From Actinomycetes bacterium (GTDB taxonomy: Bacteria; Actinomycetota; Actinomycetes; Nanopelagicales; Nanopelagicaceae), in assembly GCA_025363635.1 (NCBI GenBank), contig JANYDL010000037.1, forward strand, positions 1 to 33,639: a stretch of DNA of 33,639 nt, in the 5' to 3' direction. How positions within the stretch are numbered: position 1 is the stretch's first letter; every line of letters begins with the position of its first letter. The translations under genes and the position numbers were made by a program. Below, one piece after another: positions 9,195 through 33,639 of this stretch. The notes under the pieces are model-generated. The model saw nothing but the letters and a program-made list of their open reading frames with translations. It searched no databases and had not been told where the DNA came from.

Positions 9195-9273
9195 TTATGC
9201 ACATTCACGCCGTATTCTCAAAGAGATCTTTCAATTCCTGAAATGAGTTCATCCGAACACGCCAATGAAAAAG

Positions 9274-9346
9274 TGCGCCCGGAGGGACTCGAACCCCCAA
9301 CCTTCTGATCCGAAGTCAGAAGCTCTATCCGTTGAGCTACGGACGC
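9274..9346 (-). tRNA. tRNA-Arg (anticodon UCG)
   Basis: The minus strand folds into a standard 73-base cloverleaf. The acceptor stem is GCGTCCG with CGGGCGC (one G-U pair), the D arm is GCTC/GAGC, and the anticodon stem is TCTGA/TCAGA around the loop CTTCGGA. That gives anticodon TCG, reading CGA. The T loop TTCGAGT is present, the discriminator is A, and no CCA is encoded. A short T run follows the 3' end. Confidence 0.95.
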
Positions 9347-17572: not shown

Positions 17573-18076
17573 TTAAGTAGTAGATGTGCCAGTCCGAGCG
17601 CTTCGCGGGGCAAGTTTAGATAATTGCTTCAACAATGTTTCGTCACGACGCGGGACTCTTTCACTCAACGCGATTTCAGAACGAGTTCGAACCACGCCTT
17701 CAAGATTCAGTATTGCTTGAATAACCGCCTCGAGGTCTCGATTGTCACGTGCGACCACACGACAGAGCACGTCCGCATCGCCGGTCATCGAATGAGCCTC
17801 CACAACTTGAGCAAGCGACACTAATTTTCTGGAAAAAGATTCGAGAATGCCCTGCTGTAATTGAATATGCACAAATGCAAGCACCGGAAATCCGAGGGCG
17901 GTGTGGCTGATTTGCGGCGCGTAATCTGCGATGACACCTTGCTCCGTCATCCGATCAAGTCTTGCTTGGACGGTTCCGCGGGCAAGTCCGAGAGTGCGGG
18001 CATAATCGCGCACACCGGCTCGCGGTCTTTGGAGCAGTTCACTCAAGATGGCGCAATCAATGTGGTCTAGTGACAC
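17573..18076 (-). CDS. Lrp/AsnC family transcriptional regulator
   Basis: A 167-residue regulator. The N-terminal AsnC-type winged helix is LDHIDCAILSEL then VRDYARTLGLARGTVQARLDRM. The C-terminal RAM ligand-binding domain starts near residue 65 (VLAFVHIQ) and includes VEAHSMTGDADVLCRV. The start is GTG with AGGGGG six bases upstream. It is transcribed divergently from the branched-chain oxoacid dehydrogenase operon, so regulation of that operon by a branched-chain amino acid or oxoacid is likely, as with BkdR in pseudomonads. This is inferred from position. Confidence 0.9.
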   Translation of the reverse strand: MSLDHIDCAILSELLQRPRAGVRDYARTLGLARGTVQARLDRMTEQGVIADYAPQISHTALGFPVLAFVHIQLQQGILESFSRKLVSLAQVVEAHSMTGDADVLCRVVARDNRDLEAVIQAILNLEGVVRTRSEIALSERVPRRDETLLKQLSKLAPRSARTGTSTT

Positions 18077-18121
18077 CTAAATCCCCCTTATACCGTCGCT
18101 ATTCTCTCCTTAAGTGCACCA

Positions 18122-18149
18122 TTGGCACAGTATAAGTGCTGGCTATTGT
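18122..18149 (+). promoter_or_regulatory. promoter and possible Lrp-type operator, oxoacid dehydrogenase operon
   Basis: TTGGCA (18122-18127), a 16-bp spacer and TATTGT (18144-18149) make a plausible promoter for the E1alpha gene. An inverted repeat GCAC-AGTATAA-GTGC (18125-18139) covers it. On the other strand its centre reads TATACT, a possible -10 for the regulator gene, so one bound protein could affect both directions. Confidence 0.35.
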
Positions 18150-18224
18150 ACCCCTGGGATAGTGAGAGTTAGCATCATCGGACCCTCAATCCCAGTTCTG
18201 ACGATGAACAATCTCGGAGGCAAG

Positions 18225-19319
18225 ATGGATCTGCAAGATCGCATCGTTCAACTAATTGACAGCACTGGCACTCTTATTTCAGATCCCCGATACCAATCGA
18301 CGTTGAACGACGCGGCACTCCTAAGCCTGTATCAAGACATGGTTCTGATCCGAAAACTTGATGAACAAGCGACCGCATTGCAACGACAGGGTGAACTTGG
18401 ATTATGGGCACCGTTGTTAGGTCAAGAAGCAGCACAAATCGGTTCCGGAAGAGCGCTCAAATCTCAAGATTATGTTTTCTCGACTTATCGCGAACATGGT
18501 GTTGCTTGGTGTCGCGGAGTAGATCCTGTTGAGATGCTGAGATTCTGGCGCGGAACAATGCATCAACCTTGGGATGCGAATTTTCACCGAATGTACGGAT
18601 ATCAAGTGATTATCGGGGCTCATGCATTACATGCAACGGGATACGCAATGGGTGCACATCTAGCGGGGCGGATTGGAACAGGTAACCCAGAAACCGATCA
18701 AGCAGTCGTGGCATATTTTGGCGACGGCGCCATGAGTGAAGGTGACGTTAATGAAGCATTTATTTTTGCTACGACTTACAAATCACCTATAGTCTTTTTT
18801 TGCCAGAATAATCAGTGGGCCATTTCCGAACCCACAAAACGTCAAAGTTCGATCCATCTGTCCGAACGAGCAAAGGGATTCGGACTTCCCGGAATTCGTG
18901 TAGATGGAAATGACGTGATTGCTTGTCACGCGGTTACGACGGAGGCGTTGGATCGCGCAAGATCTGGAGAAGGTCCCACTTTGATTGAAGCAGTGACATA
19001 TCGAATGGGCGCGCACACTACTTCTGATGACCCCACTAAATATCGAGCCGGAAGTGATGATGATTTTTGGCGGGAGAAAGATCCGATTGATCGCCTGAAA
19101 ATTTATTTACACAATAACGGCATCCTGAAAGTGGAATTTGAAACCGAGCTAGCCGCGAAGGCCGATTCCCTCGCCGAAAGAATGCGCGTGGAGTGTCGCG
19201 AGCTACCAAACCCGGATGCACTCTCGATGTTTAACCATGTTTATTCCGGCTCTGATGCTCGGATTGATGAACAAAAACGCGAAGTTGAAGTCATTCTCTC
19301 CGAGAGAGAAGTGCATTGA
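18225..19319 (+). CDS. bkdA1: branched-chain 2-oxoacid dehydrogenase E1 alpha subunit
   Basis: A 364-residue alpha subunit of a thiamine diphosphate-dependent oxoacid decarboxylase. The TPP motif runs from GDGAMSEGDVNEA to CQNNQWA, and YREHGVAWCRGVDP is typical of branched-chain or pyruvate E1alpha in actinobacteria. With E1beta it decarboxylates the 2-oxoacids of leucine, valine and isoleucine and passes the acyl group to E2. A longer frame upstream is open, but ATG at 18225 follows GGAGG by four bases and gives the normal N-terminus. A neighbouring complete leucine pathway and an Lrp-type regulator favour the branched-chain type over pyruvate dehydrogenase. Confidence 0.87.
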   Translation: MDLQDRIVQLIDSTGTLISDPRYQSTLNDAALLSLYQDMVLIRKLDEQATALQRQGELGLWAPLLGQEAAQIGSGRALKSQDYVFSTYREHGVAWCRGVDPVEMLRFWRGTMHQPWDANFHRMYGYQVIIGAHALHATGYAMGAHLAGRIGTGNPETDQAVVAYFGDGAMSEGDVNEAFIFATTYKSPIVFFCQNNQWAISEPTKRQSSIHLSERAKGFGLPGIRVDGNDVIACHAVTTEALDRARSGEGPTLIEAVTYRMGAHTTSDDPTKYRAGSDDDFWREKDPIDRLKIYLHNNGILKVEFETELAAKADSLAERMRVECRELPNPDALSMFNHVYSGSDARIDEQKREVEVILSEREVH

Positions 19320-19320
19320 G

Positions 19321-20304
19321 ATGTCAGAATTCACCCTTTTGAATGCAGTGAATCGGGGCCTCCGCCGTGCCATGGAGGCAGATTCCAAGGTGATTTTGAT
19401 GGGAGAAGACATAGGAAAACTGGGTGGAGTCTTTCGAGCAACTGAAGGTCTGCAAAAAGATTTTGGCGAAGGGCGAGTAATTGATACTCCGCTTGCAGAA
19501 TCCGGCATCGTCGGAACGGCGATTGGTTTGGCCCTTTATGGTTATCGCCCCGTTGTCGAAATTCAATTCGATGGCTTTGTATATCCAGCCTTTGATCAGA
19601 TTGTCGTGCAACTCGCAAGGATGCGCTATCGCTCGGCAGGCGCGCTCTTTCTTCCCATCACGATTCGCATGCCTTTCGGTGGTGGCATTGGGTCAGTTGA
19701 GCATCATGGCGAATCTCCCGAGGCTTACTTCGCTTCGACCCCAGGACTCAGAGTTGTCACCTGCGCTGACCCAAGCGATGCATACTGGATGATTCAGCAA
19801 GCGATTGTTAGTGATGATCCTGTTATTTTTCTAGAGCCGAAGCGACGTTACTATCAAAAGGGAGAAGTCGATACAACGTTAGATATCTCGGAAGCGCCTT
19901 CGATGTATAAAGCGCGAGTTGTGCTGGAAGGTTCAGATTGTACTCTCTTAAGTTATGGACCAACGGTCGCAACCTCTTTACAAGCCGCTCGAATGGCAGC
20001 AGTGGATGGTGTGTCGCTTGAAGTAATTGATCTCAGATCGCTTAGTCCTCTTGATCTTCCTACGCTCATCGAATCAGTAAAGAAGACGGGGCGGGCAATC
20101 GTTGTTCATGAAGCATCAAGCAGTGGAGGAGTCGGTGGAGAGATCGGCCTTTGTCTTATGCAATCTTGCTTCTATTACTTGCATGCTCCAATTCTGCGCG
20201 TGACTGGATACGACACTCCCTATCCTCCTAGTCGAATTGAGGATGATTATTTACCTGATGCTGATCGAATTTTGGACGCAGTCGAAAAGGTAATGGGGTA
20301 CTGA
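19321..20304 (+). CDS. bkdA2: branched-chain 2-oxoacid dehydrogenase E1 beta subunit
   Basis: A 327-residue beta subunit of the same E1 enzyme. Markers are GEDIGKLGGVFRATEGL, DTPLAESGIVGTAIGLA and GGGIGSVEHHGESPEAYF, where the His pair contributes to the active site. The C-terminal transketolase domain (ALL-type TLLSYGPTVATSLQAA) binds E1alpha. The ATG follows the E1alpha stop by one base, and the E2 gene begins one base after its own stop, so the three genes form a tight operon. Open frame further upstream overlaps E1alpha and is not part of this gene. Confidence 0.9.
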   Translation: MSEFTLLNAVNRGLRRAMEADSKVILMGEDIGKLGGVFRATEGLQKDFGEGRVIDTPLAESGIVGTAIGLALYGYRPVVEIQFDGFVYPAFDQIVVQLARMRYRSAGALFLPITIRMPFGGGIGSVEHHGESPEAYFASTPGLRVVTCADPSDAYWMIQQAIVSDDPVIFLEPKRRYYQKGEVDTTLDISEAPSMYKARVVLEGSDCTLLSYGPTVATSLQAARMAAVDGVSLEVIDLRSLSPLDLPTLIESVKKTGRAIVVHEASSSGGVGGEIGLCLMQSCFYYLHAPILRVTGYDTPYPPSRIEDDYLPDADRILDAVEKVMGY

Positions 20305-20305
20305 T

Positions 20306-21619
20306 ATGGACGAAGTAGATCGAGAAGTCTTTGAATTTCGTCTGCCTGACGTTGGCGAAGGTTTAGAGGAAGCGGAAATTGTTCAATGGAAAGTTTCCGT
20401 AGGCCAAAAAATTGAGGTCAACCAAATCATGGTTGAAATTGAATCGTCTAAATCCCTAGTTGAATTACCAAGTCCCTATGCCGGCACCGTCATTGAATTA
20501 CTTGCCCCAGAAGGAGAAATCGTCAAGGTAGGAAAATCTATTATTCGGATTCAGTTGGCGGAGTCGAAGCCCATACACGAGGTGAAAATTGAATCTGAAC
20601 GAACGCAAATACTTGTAGGGTCTGGTCCTCGCAATGTTGAGGAAAATACCCGCGGAAGAAGACAGCGCAATTTCGGTGCCGTTTTGCCGACCACTTCAGC
20701 GGTTTCGGTGCCAGTTATCGGTCTTATTCCTCACAACCCATCCACGCTAGCCAAGCCACTCGTCCGCAAACTCGCACGCGAACTTGGAATCGATCTCACT
20801 AGCTTGGTGGGGACAGGACCTGAGGGTTCGATTTCTCGATCAGATGTAGAGAAGGCGGCAGGCGCTCTCTCTGAGAATTTAGTAAATACCGCAACACGAT
20901 TCAAATCCCGATTTGAAGGTCCACGTGAAAACCGAATTCCGATTCGTGGAGTTCAAAAAGTCATGGCCGAAGCAATGGTGGCCAGCGCCTTTACCGCACC
21001 ACATGTCACGGAATTTATTACGGTAGATGTCAGCGCATCAATACAAATGCTTGCCAGGTTCCAGCAAGAACCAGATTTTGCAAACCTTCGACTTACTCCT
21101 CTGGCTTTGCTCGCACGCGCCATGTGCGTAGCGGCCCGCGAGACCCCCCAGATAAATAGTTCTTGGGATGACGCGTCTCAAGAGATCGTCTTCAAAAATT
21201 ATGTGAATCTCGGCATTGCTACCGCAACCGATCGCGGATTAATCGTTCCAAATATCAAGAACGCTGACGAATTGAGTTTTAAAGAATTGGCCCATTCCAT
21301 TGCGGAATTAGTAAATGTCGCTCGTGCGGGGAGGACTGAACCAAAATCATTGGCGGGTGGAACCCTCTCTATCACCAATATTGGCGTCTTTGGCGTTGAC
21401 GCAGGAACGCCTATCTTGCCTCCAGGTGAGTCGGCCATCATTGCTCTAGGTGCGGTCGCCCAACGCCCGTGGGTGGTCAACGGTGAAATTGTGGCTCGGC
21501 ATGTCGCGACGCTCTCACTCTCCTTCGACCACCGACTCGTCGATGGCGCTCAAGGTTCAAAATTTCTCACTGATGTTGCGCTAATACTGCGGGAACCTGC
21601 TCACATCAGTTGGATCTAA
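20306..21619 (+). CDS. bkdB: branched-chain 2-oxoacid dehydrogenase E2 (dihydrolipoamide acyltransferase)
   Basis: A 437-residue E2 core protein. A single lipoyl domain spans residues 8-88, with the lipoylated Lys49 in ESSKSLV (the usual motif is E-[ST]-D-K-A). A linker leads to the peripheral-subunit-binding domain at about 151-187 (KPLVRKLARELGIDL, GPEGSISRSDVEKA). The acyltransferase domain ends with His409 in DHRLVDG, the catalytic motif. It transfers the branched acyl group to CoA. No E3 (lipoamide dehydrogenase) gene follows, so E3 must be shared from elsewhere. It ends seven bases from the convergent enoyl-CoA hydratase gene. Confidence 0.92.
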   Translation: MDEVDREVFEFRLPDVGEGLEEAEIVQWKVSVGQKIEVNQIMVEIESSKSLVELPSPYAGTVIELLAPEGEIVKVGKSIIRIQLAESKPIHEVKIESERTQILVGSGPRNVEENTRGRRQRNFGAVLPTTSAVSVPVIGLIPHNPSTLAKPLVRKLARELGIDLTSLVGTGPEGSISRSDVEKAAGALSENLVNTATRFKSRFEGPRENRIPIRGVQKVMAEAMVASAFTAPHVTEFITVDVSASIQMLARFQQEPDFANLRLTPLALLARAMCVAARETPQINSSWDDASQEIVFKNYVNLGIATATDRGLIVPNIKNADELSFKELAHSIAELVNVARAGRTEPKSLAGGTLSITNIGVFGVDAGTPILPPGESAIIALGAVAQRPWVVNGEIVARHVATLSLSFDHRLVDGAQGSKFLTDVALILREPAHISWI

Positions 21620-21626
21620 GAACGCA

Positions 21627-22385
21627 TTAACGTCCTTGCCAATGTGGCGCCCGATTCTCCTTGAATGATCGCGGTCCTTCTTGTGCATCCTCACTCAGAT
21701 ACACAGGATCCCAAAGAACGTTTGCTTTCTGACGCGCATCTCCAAGCAGGTCTTCCAGGGTCTGATGCACCATAGCCTTCCCTGCCGCGACTGATAGTGG
21801 AGCGTTTGTCGCAATGTGTTGGGCAAGATCTTGACTGGCGCTTTGTAATTCTTCGGAACTAACAACATAGTTCACAAGTCCGACTTCATGAGCCCTAACC
21901 GCGGTTATCGGACGAGCAGTCAAAAGTAATTCAAGCGCGATTCGGGGCGGAGTCATGAGTGGCAAGTGAGCGGCCCATGGGGCACCTCGACCATAACGAG
22001 CTTCCGTTATGCCAAATGTAGCGTGAGTAGATGCAATAACGAGATCAGCTTGCTGCGCGAGAAAAAAACCTCCGCCAAGTGCAACACCGTTTACTGAGGC
22101 AATTACCGGCTTGTGTGTCTTTAGATCGGGGATGAAATCGTCCGGCGGTATTGTGAGTTTTTGATCTGACATCTCTTTGAGATCTGCACCCGCGCTAAAA
22201 GCAACATTTCCTGCGCCAGTAATAATGAGTACTTTTGCAGTGGCGTCATTTGTAAATAAATTAACAGATTTTCGGATTCCATCACGAACAATTGCATTCA
22301 TGGCATTGCGAGCGCTCGGCCGATTAATAGTAATAGTGGCGATTCCATCTGAGACTTCGTAGAGTAACTCCTCGTTGCTATTCAT
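21627..22385 (-). CDS. liuC: enoyl-CoA hydratase/isomerase family, probable methylglutaconyl-CoA hydratase
   Basis: A 252-residue crotonase-fold protein. The oxyanion-hole segments are NVAFSAGADLKEM and NGVALGGGFFLAQQADLVIAS, and ITEARYGRGAPWAA carries the Glu expected at a catalytic position. In leucine breakdown the hydratase adds water to 3-methylglutaconyl-CoA to give HMG-CoA. This role is inferred from its place as last gene of an operon with methylcrotonyl-CoA carboxylase and HMG-CoA lyase. The ATG overlaps the stop of the acyl-CoA dehydrogenase gene by four bases. Substrate specificity cannot be read with certainty. Confidence 0.85.
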   Translation of the reverse strand: MNSNEELLYEVSDGIATITINRPSARNAMNAIVRDGIRKSVNLFTNDATAKVLIITGAGNVAFSAGADLKEMSDQKLTIPPDDFIPDLKTHKPVIASVNGVALGGGFFLAQQADLVIASTHATFGITEARYGRGAPWAAHLPLMTPPRIALELLLTARPITAVRAHEVGLVNYVVSSEELQSASQDLAQHIATNAPLSVAAGKAMVHQTLEDLLGDARQKANVLWDPVYLSEDAQEGPRSFKENRAPHWQGR

Positions 22386-23548
22386 TCTGCATGAAGTCCC
22401 AGGCTGCGGGCTATCAGAATTTTCTGTACTTCACTGGTACCTTCACCAATTTCTAAAATCTTTGAATCACGATAATGTCGCGCAACAGAATATTCATCCA
22501 TAAATCCATACCCACCAAAGATTTGAGTCGCTGCGCGAGCATTATCCATTGCTGCTTCACTCGCCACTAACTTGGCAATCGATGCTGCAGTTTTAAAATC
22601 TTTGCCCTCACTCATGAGTTGAGCGGCGTGATAATACGCAAGACGGGCTATGTGCGTTCTTGTCTGCATCTCCGCAATCTTAAATGCGATTGATTGATGA
22701 TCTCCGATTGCCTTTCCGAAGGTTTTTCGCTCTTTGGCGTAACGCAGCGATTCATCTACGCATCCTTGTGCCGCGCCTACCGCCAGTGCTGCAATGGCAA
22801 TTCGACCCTCATCGAGAGCATGGAGGAAATTGGCGTAACCACGTCCTCTTTCACCTAAAAGATTGCCCGCTGGCACGCGAACGTTATTGAAGGAGAGCGG
22901 ATGGGTATCCGAGGCGTGCCATCCAACTTTGAAATACGAAGGTTCAACCGTGAACCCTGGTGTTCCGTTTGGCACGATAATCGTGCTCAACTCTTTCGAG
23001 CCATCAGCCTTAGTACCAGTTATACAAGCCACGATCACTAGTGAGGTAATTGAGGTTCCAGAGTTGGTGATAAAGGTTTTCGAGCCATTGATGACCCATT
23101 CTTCCCCGTCGCGTACCGCTGTTGTTCGAAGATGACCTGCGTCGCTTCCCCCATCAGGTTCTGTAAGCCCGAATCCTGCAAGCGCACTTCCGGCGATGAG
23201 ATCTGGGAGATATTTCTCTTTCTGTTCGTCAGTGCCGTATCGGAATATCAACATTGAACCTAAGCCAACTCCGGCTTCAACGGTGACAGCAACACTTTGA
23301 TCTACCCGCGCTAATTCCTCAATGGCAAGACAGAGCGAGAGAAAGTCTCCACCCATGCCTCCCGCCTCGAGTGGAAAAGGTAATCCGAAGATCCCTATAG
23401 CGCCCATTTTCTTTATAACTTCATAAGGAAAAGTTTGCTCTCGATCATGATGTGCAGCCACGGGGGCAATCTCTTTATTGGAAAAATCTCGTATTGTTTC
23501 CGCGAGTGTCTGATATTCCTCAGATAATTGCATTAGCGCCGAATTCAT
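22382..23548 (-). CDS. acyl-CoA dehydrogenase, probable isovaleryl/branched short-chain type
   Basis: A 388-residue FAD-dependent acyl-CoA dehydrogenase of normal length. FGLTEPDGGSDAG and WVINGSKTFITNSG are the family flavin and substrate segments, and IFGGYGFMDEY lies near the C-terminus. Glu369 in EIGEGTSEVQ is at the catalytic-base position used by short- and medium-chain enzymes; classical isovaleryl-CoA dehydrogenase lacks Glu there and uses one on another helix. Its place between HMG-CoA lyase and the hydratase genes suggests oxidation of isovaleryl-CoA to 3-methylcrotonyl-CoA, but a broader branched-chain or short-chain activity is possible. Its start shares one base with the stop of the lyase gene. 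Confidence 0.88.
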   Translation of the reverse strand: MNSALMQLSEEYQTLAETIRDFSNKEIAPVAAHHDREQTFPYEVIKKMGAIGIFGLPFPLEAGGMGGDFLSLCLAIEELARVDQSVAVTVEAGVGLGSMLIFRYGTDEQKEKYLPDLIAGSALAGFGLTEPDGGSDAGHLRTTAVRDGEEWVINGSKTFITNSGTSITSLVIVACITGTKADGSKELSTIIVPNGTPGFTVEPSYFKVGWHASDTHPLSFNNVRVPAGNLLGERGRGYANFLHALDEGRIAIAALAVGAAQGCVDESLRYAKERKTFGKAIGDHQSIAFKIAEMQTRTHIARLAYYHAAQLMSEGKDFKTAASIAKLVASEAAMDNARAATQIFGGYGFMDEYSVARHYRDSKILEIGEGTSEVQKILIARSLGLHAE

Positions 23549-24483
23549 TACTTGCCCACCATTCTCTTGTTATTGCCCAAAGCAATCGCTGTTTTGGAGC
23601 GATTTATTAATCCAGTTTTATCACGAAGCCAACGCCCCGTATCGAGCAAAGCTTGAAAATCTATTCCAGTAGAAATACCAAGTCCGTGCAACTGCCACAC
23701 AAGGTCCTCTGTTGCCAAATTGCCTGTTGCACTTTTGGCGAAGGGACAACCGCCTAAACCTGCAATGGAAGAATCAATCGTGGATATGCCTTCAAGCAAC
23801 GCCGTAAGTGTGTTGGAGAGCGCTTGTCCGTATGTATCGTGAAAATGCACGGCGAGGTGATCTTTCGAAATGCCACGTTTATCAAGTGCATCTAAAAGAT
23901 CTATGACATCGCCGGGAGTAGCAACTCCGATGGTGTCACCTAGAGAGAGTTCGTTAATGCCATACGCAAATAATTTTTCAGCAACATTGACTACTTGGTC
24001 AGGAGAAACATTTCCCTCCCAAGGGTCACCGAAACACATAGAAATATAACCTCGAACTCGTAAACCCAAACCTCTGGCTTGCTCTATAACGGGCCTATAA
24101 ATTTCCAATGAGCCTGCAATCGTGTTATTGAGGTTGGCCTTCGCAAAAGATTCTGTAGCGCTGGCAAAGACAGCGATTTCCTTCACGCCGACTTGCATCG
24201 CACGTTCAAGACCTTTTTGATTCGGTACGAGTGCACTCATTCGATTATTAGCTAATAAAGGGGTCAATTCCAATAACAATTCTTCAGCATCAGCAAGTGC
24301 GGGAACAAGATCGGGTCGGACAAAACTAGCCACTTCAATGGCAGGAATCCCGGAATTAATAAGTCTCTGGATCAGCTCTGCCTTCACGAGTGTGGGTAAT
24401 ACCAAACTCTCATTTTGCAATCCGTCTCGGGGCCCGACTTCAAAGACGGTGACTGATTTTGGAAGAGCGTTGCGGTCAAACAT
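23548..24483 (-). CDS. mvaB: hydroxymethylglutaryl-CoA lyase
   Basis: A 311-residue HMG-CoA lyase, a TIM-barrel enzyme that cleaves HMG-CoA into acetyl-CoA and acetoacetate. The N-terminal EVGPRDGLQNE supplies catalytic Arg and Asp. The loop GLGGCPFAKSATGN (from residue 242) carries the active-site Cys246; it has Ser where most family members have Gly. The central HFHDTYGQAL holds metal-binding His residues. Its start overlaps the end of the biotin carboxylase gene by eight bases. Acetoacetate released here would feed the CoA-transferase encoded at 10.7-12.1 kb. Confidence 0.94.
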   Translation of the reverse strand: MFDRNALPKSVTVFEVGPRDGLQNESLVLPTLVKAELIQRLINSGIPAIEVASFVRPDLVPALADAEELLLELTPLLANNRMSALVPNQKGLERAMQVGVKEIAVFASATESFAKANLNNTIAGSLEIYRPVIEQARGLGLRVRGYISMCFGDPWEGNVSPDQVVNVAEKLFAYGINELSLGDTIGVATPGDVIDLLDALDKRGISKDHLAVHFHDTYGQALSNTLTALLEGISTIDSSIAGLGGCPFAKSATGNLATEDLVWQLHGLGISTGIDFQALLDTGRWLRDKTGLINRSKTAIALGNNKRMVGK

Positions 24484-26326
24484 TTTCCACCACCTCTATT
24501 AGAAGTTCTCCCACTTTCACTTTGCCACCTATAACTACGTTGCATCGTGTAATTACACCTGCACGACGAGACCTGACAATGTGCTCCATCTTCATCGCTT
24601 CAATGACAACAAGCGCATCACCGATCTCCACATGGTCACCTGTTGCAACCTTTAGGGCGACGACCACTCCTGGCATTGGACTTACAATTGCATCATTCAT
24701 CGCATCCAATGACCTGCGCAAATCGCTTGCTTGCTTGATTAACCATGTACCAAGTGTTGGATGATGGAGCCAGATATCTCCATTGTTTTGATAGGTATCG
24801 ACCACTATCGATGAGGGGCCACTTATGAGTACCTCATAGCGTTTTCCTTCTATATATGCAGAGACCGTCGCCTTCGGCGTACCGCGTAGGCGCCACCCAT
24901 CGAGATTCCAAGAAAGAAATTTCGAATCAGGAAAGTTGATTGCGGCGTATGCCTCCAACAGTTCAATAGAAGGTTCTCTTCTTTCCATCAAATGAGTTTC
25001 TAAATACTTTGTGTCATAGCGTGAGCACTGAATATCATCTTGTTCTAGGAGGCGGATCAGAAAGTCAATGTTGGTGGTAATTCCAAGTACCACAGTACTT
25101 CCCAACGCATCATGCAACTGATTGAGGGCAGCGGTGCGATCTACCCCCCAACTAGAAATCTTGGCCAGCATTGGGTCGAAAGAGCCAGAAACATGCGTGC
25201 CACTATCAATTGCAGTGTCGATGATGGTGTGGCTATTTTCGGGGGGTTTAAATAAGCCAATCTCTCCTCCTGTTGGCAAAAAGCCATTGAAGGCATCCTC
25301 GGCATAAAGTCGTGCTTCGATAGCATGTCCTAAAAATGTTCGTTTAGGTATGACTTGCCCTAATGGCTCACCTGCGGCAATTCGCAGTTGGCATTCGACC
25401 AAATCTAACGATGTAATCATCTCCGTGACCCTGTGCTCTACTTGTAGGCGAGTGTTCATCTCCATGAAGTAGAAAGTTTTCGGCGAATTGGCATCTACGA
25501 GGAACTCAATCGTGCCTAAGTTTTGATATCCGATAGCGGAAGCAAGTGCAACGGCTGCAGCGCCCATCGTTTCCCTGTCTGCTTCCGAAAGTCCAGGAGC
25601 TGGTGCCTCTTCAATCACTTTTTGGTGGCGTCTTTGTAGTGAACATTCGCGTTCACCAAGATGCATTGTCTTACCTTGAGCATCAGCAATTACCTGAAAT
25701 TCAATATGTCGTGCGTGCTCCAGGTACCTCTCAACCAACAAGGTTCCATCGCCAAAGGCCGTCTCTGACTCTCGCCTCGCGACGGGAAGGATTTCGAGGA
25801 GATCGGCGAAATTATGAGCGACGTGAAGGCCTTTGCCTCCGCCGCCGGCCGCCGGCTTTACTAATAAAGGGAATTCCAAGTCCTGACATGCCTCAACTAA
25901 TTCTTCATCTGTCATGGAACTAGTACCAGCACCAGGAAGTACTGGTACACCTGCTTTAATCGCAAAGTCGCGAGCAGATATTTTTTCACCCATCGCAGCG
26001 ATTGCAACTGCTGATGGCCCAATGAAGATCAATCCAGCATCCGTGCAAGCTTTGGCAAATTGTGCATTCTCGGCCAGAAAGCCGTATCCAGGATGAATCG
26101 CTACCGATCTACTCGCTAGTGCTATTTCAATTATCTGCTCAATGTCTAGATATCCACTGCGTTCGGAATCTTGGAGGCAATAGCTCTCTGCAATCTTTTG
26201 AACATGCAAAGATTTACTCTCTTGTGCGGTATAGATGCCAACGGCAGTGATTGCAAGTCTCTCTAATGTTGAATTGATTCGGAGAGCCACTTCACCACGA
26301 TTAGCTATCAATACTTTTGAAAACAT
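24476..26326 (-). CDS. mccA: methylcrotonyl-CoA carboxylase alpha subunit (biotin carboxylase + biotin carrier)
   Basis: A 616-residue protein. Residues 1-445 are the biotin carboxylase with an ATP-grasp core (KPAAGGGGKGLHV; EMNTRLQVEH near residue 290), and the C-terminal 70 residues are a biotinyl domain with Lys579 in EAMKMEH as the biotin site. It carboxylates biotin using bicarbonate and ATP and passes CO2 to the beta subunit. The domain order and length match MccA and related acyl-CoA carboxylases. The adjacent beta subunit, HMG-CoA lyase and hydratase make methylcrotonyl-CoA the likely substrate partner. It starts two bases after the beta subunit stop. Confidence 0.9.
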   Translation of the reverse strand: MFSKVLIANRGEVALRINSTLERLAITAVGIYTAQESKSLHVQKIAESYCLQDSERSGYLDIEQIIEIALASRSVAIHPGYGFLAENAQFAKACTDAGLIFIGPSAVAIAAMGEKISARDFAIKAGVPVLPGAGTSSMTDEELVEACQDLEFPLLVKPAAGGGGKGLHVAHNFADLLEILPVARRESETAFGDGTLLVERYLEHARHIEFQVIADAQGKTMHLGERECSLQRRHQKVIEEAPAPGLSEADRETMGAAAVALASAIGYQNLGTIEFLVDANSPKTFYFMEMNTRLQVEHRVTEMITSLDLVECQLRIAAGEPLGQVIPKRTFLGHAIEARLYAEDAFNGFLPTGGEIGLFKPPENSHTIIDTAIDSGTHVSGSFDPMLAKISSWGVDRTAALNQLHDALGSTVVLGITTNIDFLIRLLEQDDIQCSRYDTKYLETHLMERREPSIELLEAYAAINFPDSKFLSWNLDGWRLRGTPKATVSAYIEGKRYEVLISGPSSIVVDTYQNNGDIWLHHPTLGTWLIKQASDLRRSLDAMNDAIVSPMPGVVVALKVATGDHVEIGDALVVIEAMKMEHIVRSRRAGVITRCNVVIGGKVKVGELLIEVVENV

Positions 26327-26328
26327 TG

Positions 26329-27942
26329 TTACATCCGAAATATTCCGAAAGAACTTGCTGGGAGTGGGGAAAAACCCGCTACAGATAACGCAAGGGACAA
26401 AACTTTTCGCGTATCTCGCGGATCGATGATTCCGTCATCCCACAATCTGGCAGTGGAAAAGTAAGCACTACTTTCTTCTTCATACTTTGCGCGAATTGGA
26501 TTCTTAAACTCCTCAATCTCGTCGAAGCGCCAATCCTCTCCTTTAGAGGCAAGTTGGTCGCCTTTTACAGTTGCAAGTACAGACGCTGCCTGCTCTCCAC
26601 CCATCACAGATATACGTGCATTTGGCCACATCCACAGAAAGCGCGGATCGTAGGCACGCCCGCACATCGAATAATTCCCTGCTCCGAAGGAACCTCCGAT
26701 AATGAAAGTGAATTTCGGAACGCGCGTGCAGGCTACCGCTGTGACCATTTTTGCTCCGTGTTTTGCGATTCCGCCCATTTCGTATTCACGCCCGACCATG
26801 AAGCCGGAAATATTCTGCAAGAAAACCAATGGAATTTTGCGTTGATCGCATATTTCTATGAAATTTGCGCCTTTCTGCGCGGATTCACTGAACAGAACTC
26901 CATTATTCGCAATGACCCCCACGAGATATCCGTCAATGCGCGCATACCCCGCAACTAAAGTGGGTCCGAACTCTGCTTTGTACTCGAGAAATCGACTTCC
27001 ATCAACAATTCGTGCAATGACTTCCCGAACATCGTAGGTTGTTCTTGTATCGGTTGGCACAATTCCCAACAATTCTTCGTCGCTGTAGTGAGGCGGCTCT
27101 ACTGTCTCTTCCGGCTTGAGCCAACTTTCCATTTGCGGAAGTGTCGAAACAATCGAACGAACTATCGTAAGGGCTTCTCCCTCACTCGCCGCTAGGTGGT
27201 CCGTTACTCCTGAGACTCGCGAGTGCATTGCGCCTCCGCCCAAATCTTCAGCAGATACTTCCTCTCCCGTTGCGGCTTTTACAAGTGGCGGGCCCGCTAA
27301 GAAAATATGACCTTGCCCCGCAACAATGACGTTCTCATCACTCATCGCTGGAACATAGGCACCGCCTGCGGTACAGGCACCTAGCACAGCAGAAATTTGA
27401 GCAACTCCACGTGCACTGAGTTGTGCTTGATTAAAAAATATTCGTCCAAAGTGATCTCGATCAGGGAAAACTTCGTGTTGCAGGGGTAAGAACGCTCCAC
27501 CTGAATCAACAAGGTAGATGCAGGGGAGATGATTTGCGAGCGCGATCTCTTGGGCACGAAGGTGTTTCTTTACTGTCATCGGGTAATAGGTACCACCCTT
27601 CACAGTCGCATCGTTAGCGATAATCATCGAAGGGTGTCCGCTGACGATTCCTACTCCGGTGATTAAGCCTGCGCCCGGGGCATCGTCGTTATACATTCCA
27701 AGAGCGGCTAATGGCGAGAGCTCCAGAAATGGAGAGCCACGATCAAGAAGATCATTGACGCGATTTCGCGGCAACAATTTGCCTCGTTCTTGATGGCGGG
27801 TGCGAGTGAGTTCTGATCCTCCGAGAGCGGCAGTTGACATTCGGTTTGAAAATTCTTCAATGATTTTTCTGAAGGAAGATTCTCTTTCTCGGAAAGTGAC
27901 ATCGCCAGTCTCTACATTGGAAGAAATCCGAGGTAAATACAT
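26329..27942 (-). CDS. mccB: methylcrotonyl-CoA carboxylase beta subunit (carboxyltransferase)
   Basis: A 537-residue carboxyltransferase with two crotonase-like halves. Typical MccB stretches are [37 protein letters not shown] and, in the second half, [15 protein letters not shown] and [20 protein letters not shown]. It carboxylates 3-methylcrotonyl-CoA to 3-methylglutaconyl-CoA. These segments distinguish it from propionyl-CoA carboxylase beta. It is first in a five-gene operon. The ATG has GGAGG three to four bases upstream, and operator-like repeats lie just before it in the gap to the divergent TetR gene. Confidence 0.93.
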
Positions 27943-27951
27943 GATCCTCCC

Positions 27952-27983
27952 ACATTGTTAGTGATCGTTAACATTGTTAGGAT
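27952..27983. promoter_or_regulatory. divergent promoter with repeated TetR-type operator, mcc operon / tetR
   Basis: ACATTGTTA occurs at 27952-27960 and again at 27971-27979, 19 bp apart (about two helical turns). The second copy sits in the odd palindrome TAACA-T-TGTTA (27969-27979). For the rightward tetR gene the repeats supply TTGTTA (27955-27960), a 17-bp spacer and TAGGAT (27978-27983), a good promoter. The mcc promoter on the other strand must lie in the same stretch. Repression of both directions by the TetR protein is the natural reading. Confidence 0.6.
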
Positions 27984-28041
27984 AGCCTTGCAGATAGCCC
28001 AACTGGAAGAGATTTCAAGGACTTTCTACTTCGGAGGAATC

Positions 28042-28590
28042 ATGGGAACTCGTGAGCGACTTCTTGAGAACGGGGCTGCTCTCTTTGCCGCCAAAGGCTT
28101 CCACGGGGTGGGCGTTGAGGAATTGGGCGACTCTGTTGGATTAACTGGCCCATCGATGTACCGACATTTCCCTAACAAAGCTGCTTTGCTCGCCCAAATG
28201 CTTATCACCGTAAGTTCTTCTCTGTTGGAGGGAGCGAAGGAGGTAATTTCAGAAAATAGCGACCCTAAAAAGGCCCTTTCCGCCTTAGTCGAGCGTCATG
28301 TCGAGTTCGCCACTACATATCCCGATCTCATTCGAGTTCATGAAAGAGACTTTGGCAATCTAGAAGCCGACGACTCCCGACATGTCCGTCGTTTACAACG
28401 AAAGTATGTCGAACTATGGGTTGATCAAATTCAACTTGTGCGACGAAACGACTCAGACGATATTGCGCGAACAATGGCTCATGCCGTCTTTGGTCTGCTC
28501 AACTCAACTCCGCGACTCCCTTCACTTGTCCAAAAAGAGGAATTCGACGGATTGATGCACAACATGGCCATGCGAGCGCTACTTCCTTAA
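28042..28590 (+). CDS. TetR family transcriptional regulator
   Basis: A 182-residue repressor. The N-terminal helix-turn-helix runs from about 1 to 48 (TRERLLENGAALFAAKGFHG, then SVGLTGPSMYRHFPNKAALL), with the typical YRHFxxKxxL ending. The rest is an all-helical ligand-binding domain. An open frame extends upstream, but the ATG at 28042 is chosen because GGAGGA lies directly before it and the domain starts there. It is divergent from the methylcrotonyl-CoA carboxylase operon and probably represses it and itself, responding to an acyl-CoA intermediate of leucine breakdown. The ligand is inferred, not seen. Confidence 0.9.
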   Translation: MGTRERLLENGAALFAAKGFHGVGVEELGDSVGLTGPSMYRHFPNKAALLAQMLITVSSSLLEGAKEVISENSDPKKALSALVERHVEFATTYPDLIRVHERDFGNLEADDSRHVRRLQRKYVELWVDQIQLVRRNDSDDIARTMAHAVFGLLNSTPRLPSLVQKEEFDGLMHNMAMRALLP

Positions 28591-28621
28591 TCGCACATGA
28601 ATTTTGAGAAGGGTAAGAATT

Positions 28622-29416
28622 ATGAGTACGACTCCAAGAACCTATGTGATCACTGGCTCTTCATCAGGAATAGGGGCCGCGACTTCGCACTTACTCATCG
28701 AGCGAGGTTCCAGAGTCATCGGAGTGGATCTCCATGATGCAGATGTCATCGCAGACTTAAGTACTTCTTCTGGACGAGCTAATGCCATAGCAGGAGTTCT
28801 CGAATCGACTAACGGAATTATCGATGCGATCATTCCTTGCGCGGGAATAATCCATGGAATCATTCCGACAGTTTCAGTGAATTTCTTCGGAGTCACTGAT
28901 TTTGTAAATGGACTTCTTCCGACTCTCAAGAATAGCTCTGCCCCAAGAGTTGCAACGATGAGTTCTGTCGCATCTTTGCTGCCTAATTCACCACAACTTG
29001 TTGACGCCATGCTTGATGCCGATGAACGAAAAGCGTTGGACATCGCCCAGGGACTCGTTAATGAAGGTCCAAAATCCGCTGGACTTATTTATTCCTCAAC
29101 CAAAAGAGCGATCTCTCGGTGGGTTCGACGTGAGTCTATTAAGCCAGAATGGGCGGGGGCTGGTATTCCACTCAATGCAGTAGGACCCGGGATAGTAGAA
29201 ACGCCAATGATGAGCAAGGTACTCGCTTCAGATAAATTACGCGCTGCTACGGACGCGATGATTCCAATGCCGCTAAATCACTACTTAAAACCAAATGAAG
29301 TTGCTTATTTGCTTGCGTGGCTTACAAGTAAAGAGAATTCACATATCACCGGTCAAACCATTTACATCGACGGCGGCTCAGATGCCGTTATGAGAGGTTC
29401 CAACATCTGGACTTAG
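28622..29416 (+). CDS. short-chain dehydrogenase/reductase, 3-alpha-hydroxysteroid dehydrogenase-like
   Basis: A 264-residue classical SDR. The cofactor motif is TGSSSGIGAAT, an Asp after the second strand (VDLHDADVIADL) points to NAD, and catalytic residues appear as Ser in MSSVAS and YSSTK (YxxxK). The shortened early region and the stretch between Ser and Tyr resemble the 3-alpha-hydroxysteroid dehydrogenase/carbonyl reductase group. The ATG at 28622 is taken as the start. It lies 31 bases after the TetR gene in the same direction and may be cotranscribed. Substrate unknown. Confidence 0.85.
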   Translation: MSTTPRTYVITGSSSGIGAATSHLLIERGSRVIGVDLHDADVIADLSTSSGRANAIAGVLESTNGIIDAIIPCAGIIHGIIPTVSVNFFGVTDFVNGLLPTLKNSSAPRVATMSSVASLLPNSPQLVDAMLDADERKALDIAQGLVNEGPKSAGLIYSSTKRAISRWVRRESIKPEWAGAGIPLNAVGPGIVETPMMSKVLASDKLRAATDAMIPMPLNHYLKPNEVAYLLAWLTSKENSHITGQTIYIDGGSDAVMRGSNIWT

Positions 29417-31737: not shown

Positions 31738-32505
31738 TTAGCGAATCTTTGGTTTTTTTCTCTGCAAGATAACCATGACCACAATTAACCCTGACAAGAT
31801 AAGTGCAGTACGCCCGAATCCGAATCCAAGTCCGCCCCTCACTTTGTCAGCTCCGACCCAATCAGCAAAGGAAGCTCCAAAGGGTCTCGTGATGATGTAC
31901 GAGAACCAAAAGGTTAAGATCGGGTTGTACTTGAAGATTAGGTAGCCAACACCTGGTAGAAAGAAAGTGATCCCGAAAACAATTCCTGACAATAAATAAC
32001 CCCAATTCAAGGTCCGAGCCGTCATATCTCCAGCAGCGGTTCCAAGTGCGAATGTGATCAAAACTGTCAACCAATAGAAAAACTCGCGCCTGGTAGTTGA
32101 GATACTCTCGATTGAAAGTGTTCCTTCAACTCGATACCAGAGCCAAAAAACAACCGCGAGAATAATCGAGAAAAAGACTGTCGAGACAATGTATGGAACG
32201 CCCAATCCAAGGTGCATAACGTCTGCTGCCATTGTCCCAAAGAGGCTGACCATGGCTACAGCAAACCAATAGACCCATCTGTTGTAGATGCGAAATCTAA
32301 ATTGCAAGTAGAGCCCCACTGCCAAAGCAAGAAGGCCGGAAGCAACTGCGGGGGCTTTACCAAATTGTTTAACAAGAAAGTCCGACGCGTCCTCCCCCAT
32401 ACCAGTGCTAAGGATTTTGATGATCCAAAACCCCATGGTGATTTCGGGGACTTTGCCTCTGATTGGCTCTTTGAAATGGCTTCTCACTAGTTGAAAAAGA
32501 GTCAT
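31738..32505 (-). CDS. COG4705/DUF347 family membrane protein, copy 2
   Basis: A 255-residue polytopic membrane protein with about seven or eight hydrophobic segments. It contains the repeated DUF347 pattern: KVPEITMGFWIIKILSTGMGEDASDF near the start, ALGTAAGDMTA in the middle and TRPFGASFADW towards the end, each with a conserved Gly and an acidic residue inside the membrane region. The C-terminus is basic. Function is unknown in this family. Its ATG lies directly against the stop of the homologous upstream gene, so both are on one transcript. The pair arose by tandem duplication. Confidence 0.82.
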   Translation of the reverse strand: MTLFQLVRSHFKEPIRGKVPEITMGFWIIKILSTGMGEDASDFLVKQFGKAPAVASGLLALAVGLYLQFRFRIYNRWVYWFAVAMVSLFGTMAADVMHLGLGVPYIVSTVFFSIILAVVFWLWYRVEGTLSIESISTTRREFFYWLTVLITFALGTAAGDMTARTLNWGYLLSGIVFGITFFLPGVGYLIFKYNPILTFWFSYIITRPFGASFADWVGADKVRGGLGFGFGRTALILSGLIVVMVILQRKKPKIR

Positions 32506-33330
32506 TTACTTAGGCGACAACCTTGAAAACTCTTCGTCACTCAAGGTGATCTGATCGCGCTTGGAGCGAACCAGATAAATGACCATTACAGCAATTGCAG
32601 AAAGAAAAATGACGCTGGTCATGGTCGTGCCAAGACCCCAACCTCCGTATTTGGGATCGCTCTGGGACATTTGGTCTCCGATCGATGCTCCAAGCGGGCG
32701 AGTAAAGACATAAATTGTCCAAAAAGCAAACACATGATTTATCGTATCGAACCTCCAAAGTAAACTGACAAAGGCGATAATTCCAGCAAAGATGAAGAAC
32801 GACACTGCGTAACCTAGATCAAATCGCTCCGCTACCAAGTCCCCGGTAGCCGTACCAAGTGCGAAAGTGAAAAGGATTGTGAGCCAGTAGAAAGACTCGC
32901 GAGTATTTGTATAAATCGAATGGATGGCAATTGTTTTTTCAGAGCTGTACCAGATTGCAAAAGTTAGAGCTAAGCAAATAGAGAAGACGACACTTGAGGT
33001 CATTAAGGACACATGGAAATTATCGGAAAGGTTGTCTGTGAACAGAGTTCCAGCAATCGAGATAAGGACAACGACAAGCCAATAGAGAATTGGTTTATAT
33101 GTCTTTGACTTAAATTGGAAAGTTAAGGCCGCCACCAGAAGCATGAGAGTAAAAAAAGTTGTTCCGTTTAGTCCAAATCCGAGTGTGGTATTCAAAAAGT
33201 CAGCGAAAGTTTCACCTACTGTTGTGCAAAGTATCTTGATGACCCAAAAAAAGATCGTAATTTGTGGGACTTTGACGAGAAGTTTGTTGTCGTGAAATGA
33301 TTTATGCACGTGGTCTTGAATATTTTCCAT
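32506..33330 (-). CDS. COG4705/DUF347 family membrane protein, copy 1
   Basis: A 274-residue paralogue of the gene that follows it. The same three motifs appear: KVPQITIFFWVIKILCTTVGETFADF, ALGTATGDLVAERFDLGY and TRPLGASIGDQM. About eight membrane segments are predicted, with charged tails at both ends and a longer C-terminus (RSKRDQITLSDEEFSRLSPK). The spacing of the motifs suggests an internally repeated channel or transporter-like fold, but no substrate is known. The start is ATG without a ribosome-binding site, a few bases after the predicted transcription start. It heads a two-gene operon close to the tRNA-Arg remnant. Confidence 0.82.
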   Translation of the reverse strand: MENIQDHVHKSFHDNKLLVKVPQITIFFWVIKILCTTVGETFADFLNTTLGFGLNGTTFFTLMLLVAALTFQFKSKTYKPILYWLVVVLISIAGTLFTDNLSDNFHVSLMTSSVVFSICLALTFAIWYSSEKTIAIHSIYTNTRESFYWLTILFTFALGTATGDLVAERFDLGYAVSFFIFAGIIAFVSLLWRFDTINHVFAFWTIYVFTRPLGASIGDQMSQSDPKYGGWGLGTTMTSVIFLSAIAVMVIYLVRSKRDQITLSDEEFSRLSPK

Positions 33331-33369: not shown

Positions 33370-33465
33370 TAATTTATTTTCTAAGCATATTCACAGACAA
33401 CGCGGCCGAGTTCCAATAATGGCGAAAGATCCGAATGAATTAACGTTCTTATACGAACAGTGCAA

Positions 33466-33508
33466 GAAAAGTTCGACCCCTCAAGTGAAAGGCGAGAGAG
33501 GTCGAACT
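33466..33508 (-). terminator. rho-independent terminator downstream of the tRNA-Arg fragment
   Basis: On the minus strand, AGTTCGACC (33500-33508) pairs perfectly with GGTCGAACT (33470-33478) around a 21-base loop, followed by a T-rich run (TTTTCTT counting the last stem base, 33464-33470). It begins three bases after the tRNA 3' end, as expected for the original tRNA transcript. Confidence 0.6.
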
Positions 33509-33510
33509 CG

Positions 33511-33552
33511 TGCGGCCGAAGGGATTCGAACCCCTAACCTTCTGATCCGTAG
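33511..33552 (-). pseudogene. 3' fragment of tRNA-Arg (anticodon ACG), probable attachment-site remnant
   Basis: The minus strand reads as the 3' part of tRNA-Arg(ACG): from the anticodon loop CTACGGA, through TCAGA, the variable region, a T arm with TTCGAAT, and the acceptor strand CGGCCGC with discriminator A. Upstream of CTACGG the sequence no longer fits: no matching anticodon 5' strand, D arm or acceptor 5' strand is present. The break falls at the anticodon loop, where tyrosine integrases commonly cross over. It is therefore a partial copy, not a working tRNA. Confidence 0.7.
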
Positions 33553-33639
33553 GTAGTCCCTTGGGTCAATTCGTCATTGTTACAAGTCTATTTTACACGA
33601 GAAACTCTTAAGAATGTGTCACTGTTTATCAGGGTGTTT

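Follow-up and report, generated by a model that had tools for sequence, protein, structure and literature searches.

The window analysed here, which is the whole stretch of 33,639 bases that makes up contig C43 in the draft genome of a freshwater Nanopelagicaceae bacterium (1.85 Mb, 104 contigs), ends in a displaced 3' half of a tRNA-Arg(ACG) gene, and the evidence supports the identification of this segment as the attR of an element that targets tRNA-Arg. The displaced half (33510..33552, minus strand; tRNA positions 32-74, from the anticodon loop to the acceptor) is accompanied by an identical intact copy in the same genome, its breakpoint lies in the anticodon loop, and relatives carry the same arrangement in complete form. 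Very probably, these features mark the edge of an integrative element (a temperate phage, a satellite or an island) with tRNA-Arg(ACG) as its attB, the fragment being the host-derived side of attR. As such, it is the standard att footprint of an element inserting into tRNA-Arg and belongs to ordinary biology.

The minus-strand sequence of 33510-33552 is CTACGGATCAGAAGGTTAGGGGTTCGAATCCCTTCGGCCGCAC. An earlier note made from the sequence alone had described 33511-33552 as an exact match to the 3' half of tRNA-Arg(ACG), reaching from the anticodon loop as far as the discriminator, and these 42 bases are indeed identical to the intact gene on contig C98 (C98:1622-1695), the agreement rising to 43/43 when 33510 is counted. 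Identity breaks off exactly on the 5' side of tRNA position 32, where the anticodon loop begins; the loop itself, CTACGGA (33546..33552, minus strand; anticodon 33548-33550), forms the left boundary of identity and would be the crossover (overlap) region. Toward higher coordinates, the similarity to the tRNA ends immediately at this point and ARAGORN calls no tRNA at the fragment, so that the 5' half is absent and, as the same note stated, unrelated DNA stands in its place. A BLAST comparison of the fragment with the C98 copy yields a match of 86 bp (33467-33552, 93%) that spans both the 3' half and the terminator. Only three places in the 1.85 Mb match, namely the fragment, the intact C98 copy and the paralogous tRNA-Arg(TCG), which is intact at 9273-9346 of the window; a chance match is thereby excluded.

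The sole intact tRNA-Arg(ACG) found in this genome, which would be the regenerated gene, is encoded on the minus strand of C98 (21,308 bases; ARAGORN). Thus, the complete tRNA with an identical 3' half that was expected further to the right does exist, on a separate contig. Upstream of it is fprA (C98:1772-3076), an order shared with many relatives. Downstream, toward the contig start, are an EryCIII-like/UDPGT glycosyltransferase gene (C98:309-1532), for which no match above 25% identity was detected in 20 congeners, and then the end of a 102-aa gene. The G+C content is 52.3% in C98:1-1577 vs 47.3% in the remaining 20 kb of the contig. Within the window, G+C is even (45-50%) and no composition shift was found, so base composition does not mark the window as the element. 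The intact tRNA and the fragment lie on different contigs; C43 breaks off rightward and C98 leftward, which are the sides where an intervening element must lie, and both the orientation of the copies and the contig ends agree with an element located between them. The argument from orientation that placed the element to the right of the fragment is therefore correct.

The proposed mechanism runs as follows. A tyrosine integrase would exchange strands in the anticodon loop, so that the tRNA 3' half and terminator brought by the element would join the host 5' half and rebuild a working tRNA on C98 (attL). The old 3' half of the host, together with its native terminator, would be displaced to the far end, where it would now form window positions 33464-33552. 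The element would fill the assembly gap between window position 33553 and approximately C98:1577, C43 and C98 presumably being joined through it, and C98:1-1577 would be part of the element.

On the lower-coordinate side of the fragment is the native rho-independent terminator of the tRNA gene (33464..33509, minus strand), a hairpin with a loop containing GCCTTTCAC and a fold energy of -22.7 kcal/mol (z -5.5), followed by TTTTCTT. The hairpin and T run reported earlier directly after the tRNA 3' end are thus present; the stem comprises 14 pairs, not 9. The intact C98 copy also has a terminator (C98:1576-1621), which is weaker (-12.5 kcal/mol). The terminator of the fragment is matched by those of the related genomes G010 (97.7% over the 86-bp terminator and 3' half) and G008 (40/40, terminator). 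The C98 terminator is mixed, the tRNA-proximal arm resembling those of G003 and G002 and the distal arm those of the window and G010, which suggests that recombination took place within the loop of the terminator at some time. The related terminator on the intact copy makes the repeat 86 bp, longer than the usual core, and this counts against the attR explanation.

The named relatives were retrieved through fprA and are Nanopelagicaceae or Planktophila-type freshwater actinobacteria. The complete arrangement is seen in the relative G060, in which a single contig (CAMCYS010000004.1) contains fprA, an intact tRNA-Arg(ACG), an integrase, small genes and a displaced 3' half. The latter lies 7606 bp downstream of the intact tRNA in the same orientation and begins at the same base as the window fragment. 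The G060 integrase is a tyrosine integrase of 379 aa (PF00589, PF14659, PF14657) with SAM-like and arm-binding domains. The rebuilt G060 copy carries a single substitution (TCAGTAGG) and the displaced one has the consensus sequence, a pattern that would follow from a rebuilt half brought in by the element. The G060 element itself (L311:567-8246; 7.6 kb) encodes the integrase, an HTH_17 protein, a DUF3631 protein and small genes; it is apparently complete and satellite-like in size. In G012, the same architecture and breakpoint are split between two contigs: C30 carries tRNA-Arg(TCG) followed by an integrase related to that of G060, and C57 carries the 3' half. The G012 flanks match both sides of the window tRNA-Arg(TCG) (9450-10573 on C30, 37-2528 on C57), so that window positions 9273-9346 represent the empty site of the G012 element. 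The pattern of an integrase using a tRNA gene, which the earlier note had read from the window, is thereby found in full. The window resembles the G060 element in its Nanopelagicaceae host, in the location of tRNA-Arg(ACG) downstream of fprA and in the identical breakpoint base; it differs in that the element-side core arm ends with AAAA in G060 and G012 and with GACTAC in the window.

Copies of the 3' half with the same boundary are present also in G015 and G062. In G006, a second, decayed tRNA-Arg adjoins fprA (L129:6330-6503) and is split by 74 bases at approximately the first anticodon-loop base, the intact copy being 16 kb away, and G061 contains a partial tRNA-Arg copy of 57 bases. Such decayed or partial copies, e.g., the split, mutated tRNA-Arg by fprA in G006 and the 57-base copy in G061, would also be compatible with duplication of the tRNA gene and deletion of the 5' half of one copy, without an integrase. 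This origin is nonetheless highly improbable for the window fragment, given that its 43 bases contain zero substitutions and that several genomes show, independently of one another, truncation at exactly tRNA position 32, which is also where phage attP cores have their boundary.

Among 50 related loci, 8 are on contigs that stop within 60 bases downstream of tRNA-Arg(ACG), which fits a site where insertions vary between strains. The same eight contig ends could be invoked for an assembly artefact, in which the true contig runs on into a whole tRNA-Arg gene and the final 87 bases were misjoined at the 43 conserved bases; assemblies often break or misjoin at tRNA genes, and C43 ends only 87 bases past the break. 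A misjoin, however, requires a real 3'-half fragment with these 87 bases elsewhere, and none is present in the bin. Moreover, the break base is identical in the single-contig cases of G060, G062 and G015, and the fragment is flanked by sequence of its own and followed by a stronger terminator than that of the intact copy, which leaves the artefact very unlikely.

Comparison with putative empty sites yields a mixed picture. In G010, tRNA-Arg(ACG) is uninterrupted, and the region comprising fprA and the next 16 kb is collinear with C98. The window gene for an SDR dehydrogenase (28604..29416, plus strand) has its sole clear match in this genome (66% identity, the next match being 29%) 8.2 kb from the tRNA, on the side other than fprA and on the same strand. 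The genes between tRNA-Arg(ACG) and the SDR gene differ, so G010 supports an empty site and does not prove it. In the closest relative, G003, the intact tRNA is followed by a terminator like that of C98, and the SDR-gene copy lies on a stretch without any tRNA-Arg; both observations count against the attR explanation. In G015, window genes 17573-29416, including a carboxylase block, are located far from tRNA-Arg(ACG), which leaves room for the fragment to belong to another, rearranged place. These observations bear on a variant of the attR explanation, the first half of which is compatible with it: the att scar would be real and C98 would not be its partner, the C98 locus being native and the fragment a remnant of a separate or older element elsewhere. 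The tRNA-proximal arm of the C98 terminator, which is the same in G003, and the G015 gene placement speak for such a remnant. Against it, no intact tRNA-Arg(ACG) other than that on C98 was found in the genome, and G010 combines the SDR gene with a near-identical terminator adjoining the fprA-linked tRNA. On balance, a non-partner C98 appears unlikely, and attR paired with C98 is the preferred reading. Also on the host side of the scar are two accessory genes for DUF347 membrane proteins (31738..33330, minus strand; Pfam PF03988), and homologues of the outer one are present in few relatives.

Because the window is the whole contig and ends there, only the first 87 bases of the supposed element (33553..33639; 38% G+C) are available. 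No similarity was found for them: they have no match elsewhere in the same genome or in the genus, none beyond the core in phages that use tRNA-Arg (BPs, cluster G and others), and a 22-mer from them has no exact match in IMG/VR. A search for possible arm-site repeats common to these 87 bases and C98:1-1640 revealed no shared 9-mer. The integrase search in the genome itself returned only a pair of XerC/D-like genes and, on contig C7, a C-terminal fragment, which is a further point against the attR explanation. The C7 fragment (L052:3072-3446, G000) lies near a tRNA-Phe/Asp/Glu cluster and is probably left over from a different element of this genome; being contig-internal and near a different tRNA cluster, it was rejected as the missing integrase. 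In G060 and G012, the integrase is next to the intact tRNA, unlike C98, where none is encoded within 1.5 kb, so that the element at the window end probably has an integrase other than the G060/G012 type. In Bipper and prophiGD43A-5, the integrase is located, relative to the core, where the sequence to the right of the window end would be; given the C98 gene content, this arrangement is, by analogy, the more likely one for the window element.

The segment matches 142 phage records at an E-value of 0.01, and the 43-mer alone matches 147, mostly from Mycobacterium and Gordonia phages. Window base 33552 is the end point of the match in the listed Corynebacterium phage records; for most of the remaining records, the end point is no more than a few bases away, or it comes up to 8 bases earlier. 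In many phage records, the match lies inside the immunity repressor gene. An attP in the tRNA-Arg 3' half, one feature of integration-dependent-immunity phages of the BPs type, is found here as well. Phage BPs and its relatives share a 35-bp common core with tRNA-Arg, which is rebuilt on integration (PMC9262239, PMC4557955). Mycobacteriophage BPs and cluster G, Bipper, Gordonia phages (UmaThurman and others) and Corynebacterium phage Poushou resemble the window in that the attP core is the same tRNA-Arg 3' half (PMC9262239, PMC4557955). The Islander database contains 2083 anticodon-centred islands (PMC4383910). The window arrangement is similar to these tRNA-targeted islands in the regenerated tRNA, the displaced 3' fragment and the putative anticodon-loop crossover (PMC4383910), and differs from them in that the two ends are on separate contigs, no integrase is visible and the repeat (86 bp) extends over the terminator. 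Searching the literature for islands located here in Nanopelagicales turned up no paper. Exact matches to the 43-mer in IMG/VR are complete tRNAs in 13 of 14 cases, probably host flanks of proviral contigs. The IMG/VR sequence 3300046616_000136 (L154:167-209) contains the exact tRNA-Arg 3' half without the 5' half; just beyond it, on the side equivalent to the right of the window end, is a frame judged by eye to be integrase-like, and this locus looks like a viral attP or attR.

The 9-base loop of the terminator, GCCUUUCAC, does not vary among 14 distinct family sequences that were selected for containing the motif core (33464-33509, C98:1576-1621, L055, L057, L064, L219 and others downstream of tRNA-Arg(ACG)), and the stem covaries, with 12 of the 14 pairs changed on both sides among these sequences. 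Of 78 distinct sequences downstream of tRNA-Arg(ACG), 26 contain the loop motif, as does 1 of 10 downstream of tRNA-Arg(TCG); it follows none of the other tRNAs seen. In G005, tRNA-Arg(TCG) (L054:833-906) is followed by the same terminator as the tRNA-Arg(ACG) of that genome, which may reflect transfer between the two loci. An Rfam search identified the tRNA as the sole match. Termination does not need a conserved loop, and in the genome of the window the terminator with its loop has been duplicated together with the tRNA half. Tentatively, and with more doubt than confidence, the terminator could have an additional role, either as a regulatory or protein-binding RNA or as an extended att site that would allow the rebuilt tRNA to terminate still.

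In streamlined freshwater actinobacteria, the tRNA-Arg(ACG) gene downstream of fprA repeatedly serves as an insertion site, and its exact breakpoint can be used for locating the prophages and satellites of these organisms. Insertion at this tRNA also explains why many Nanopelagicaceae draft contigs stop there.
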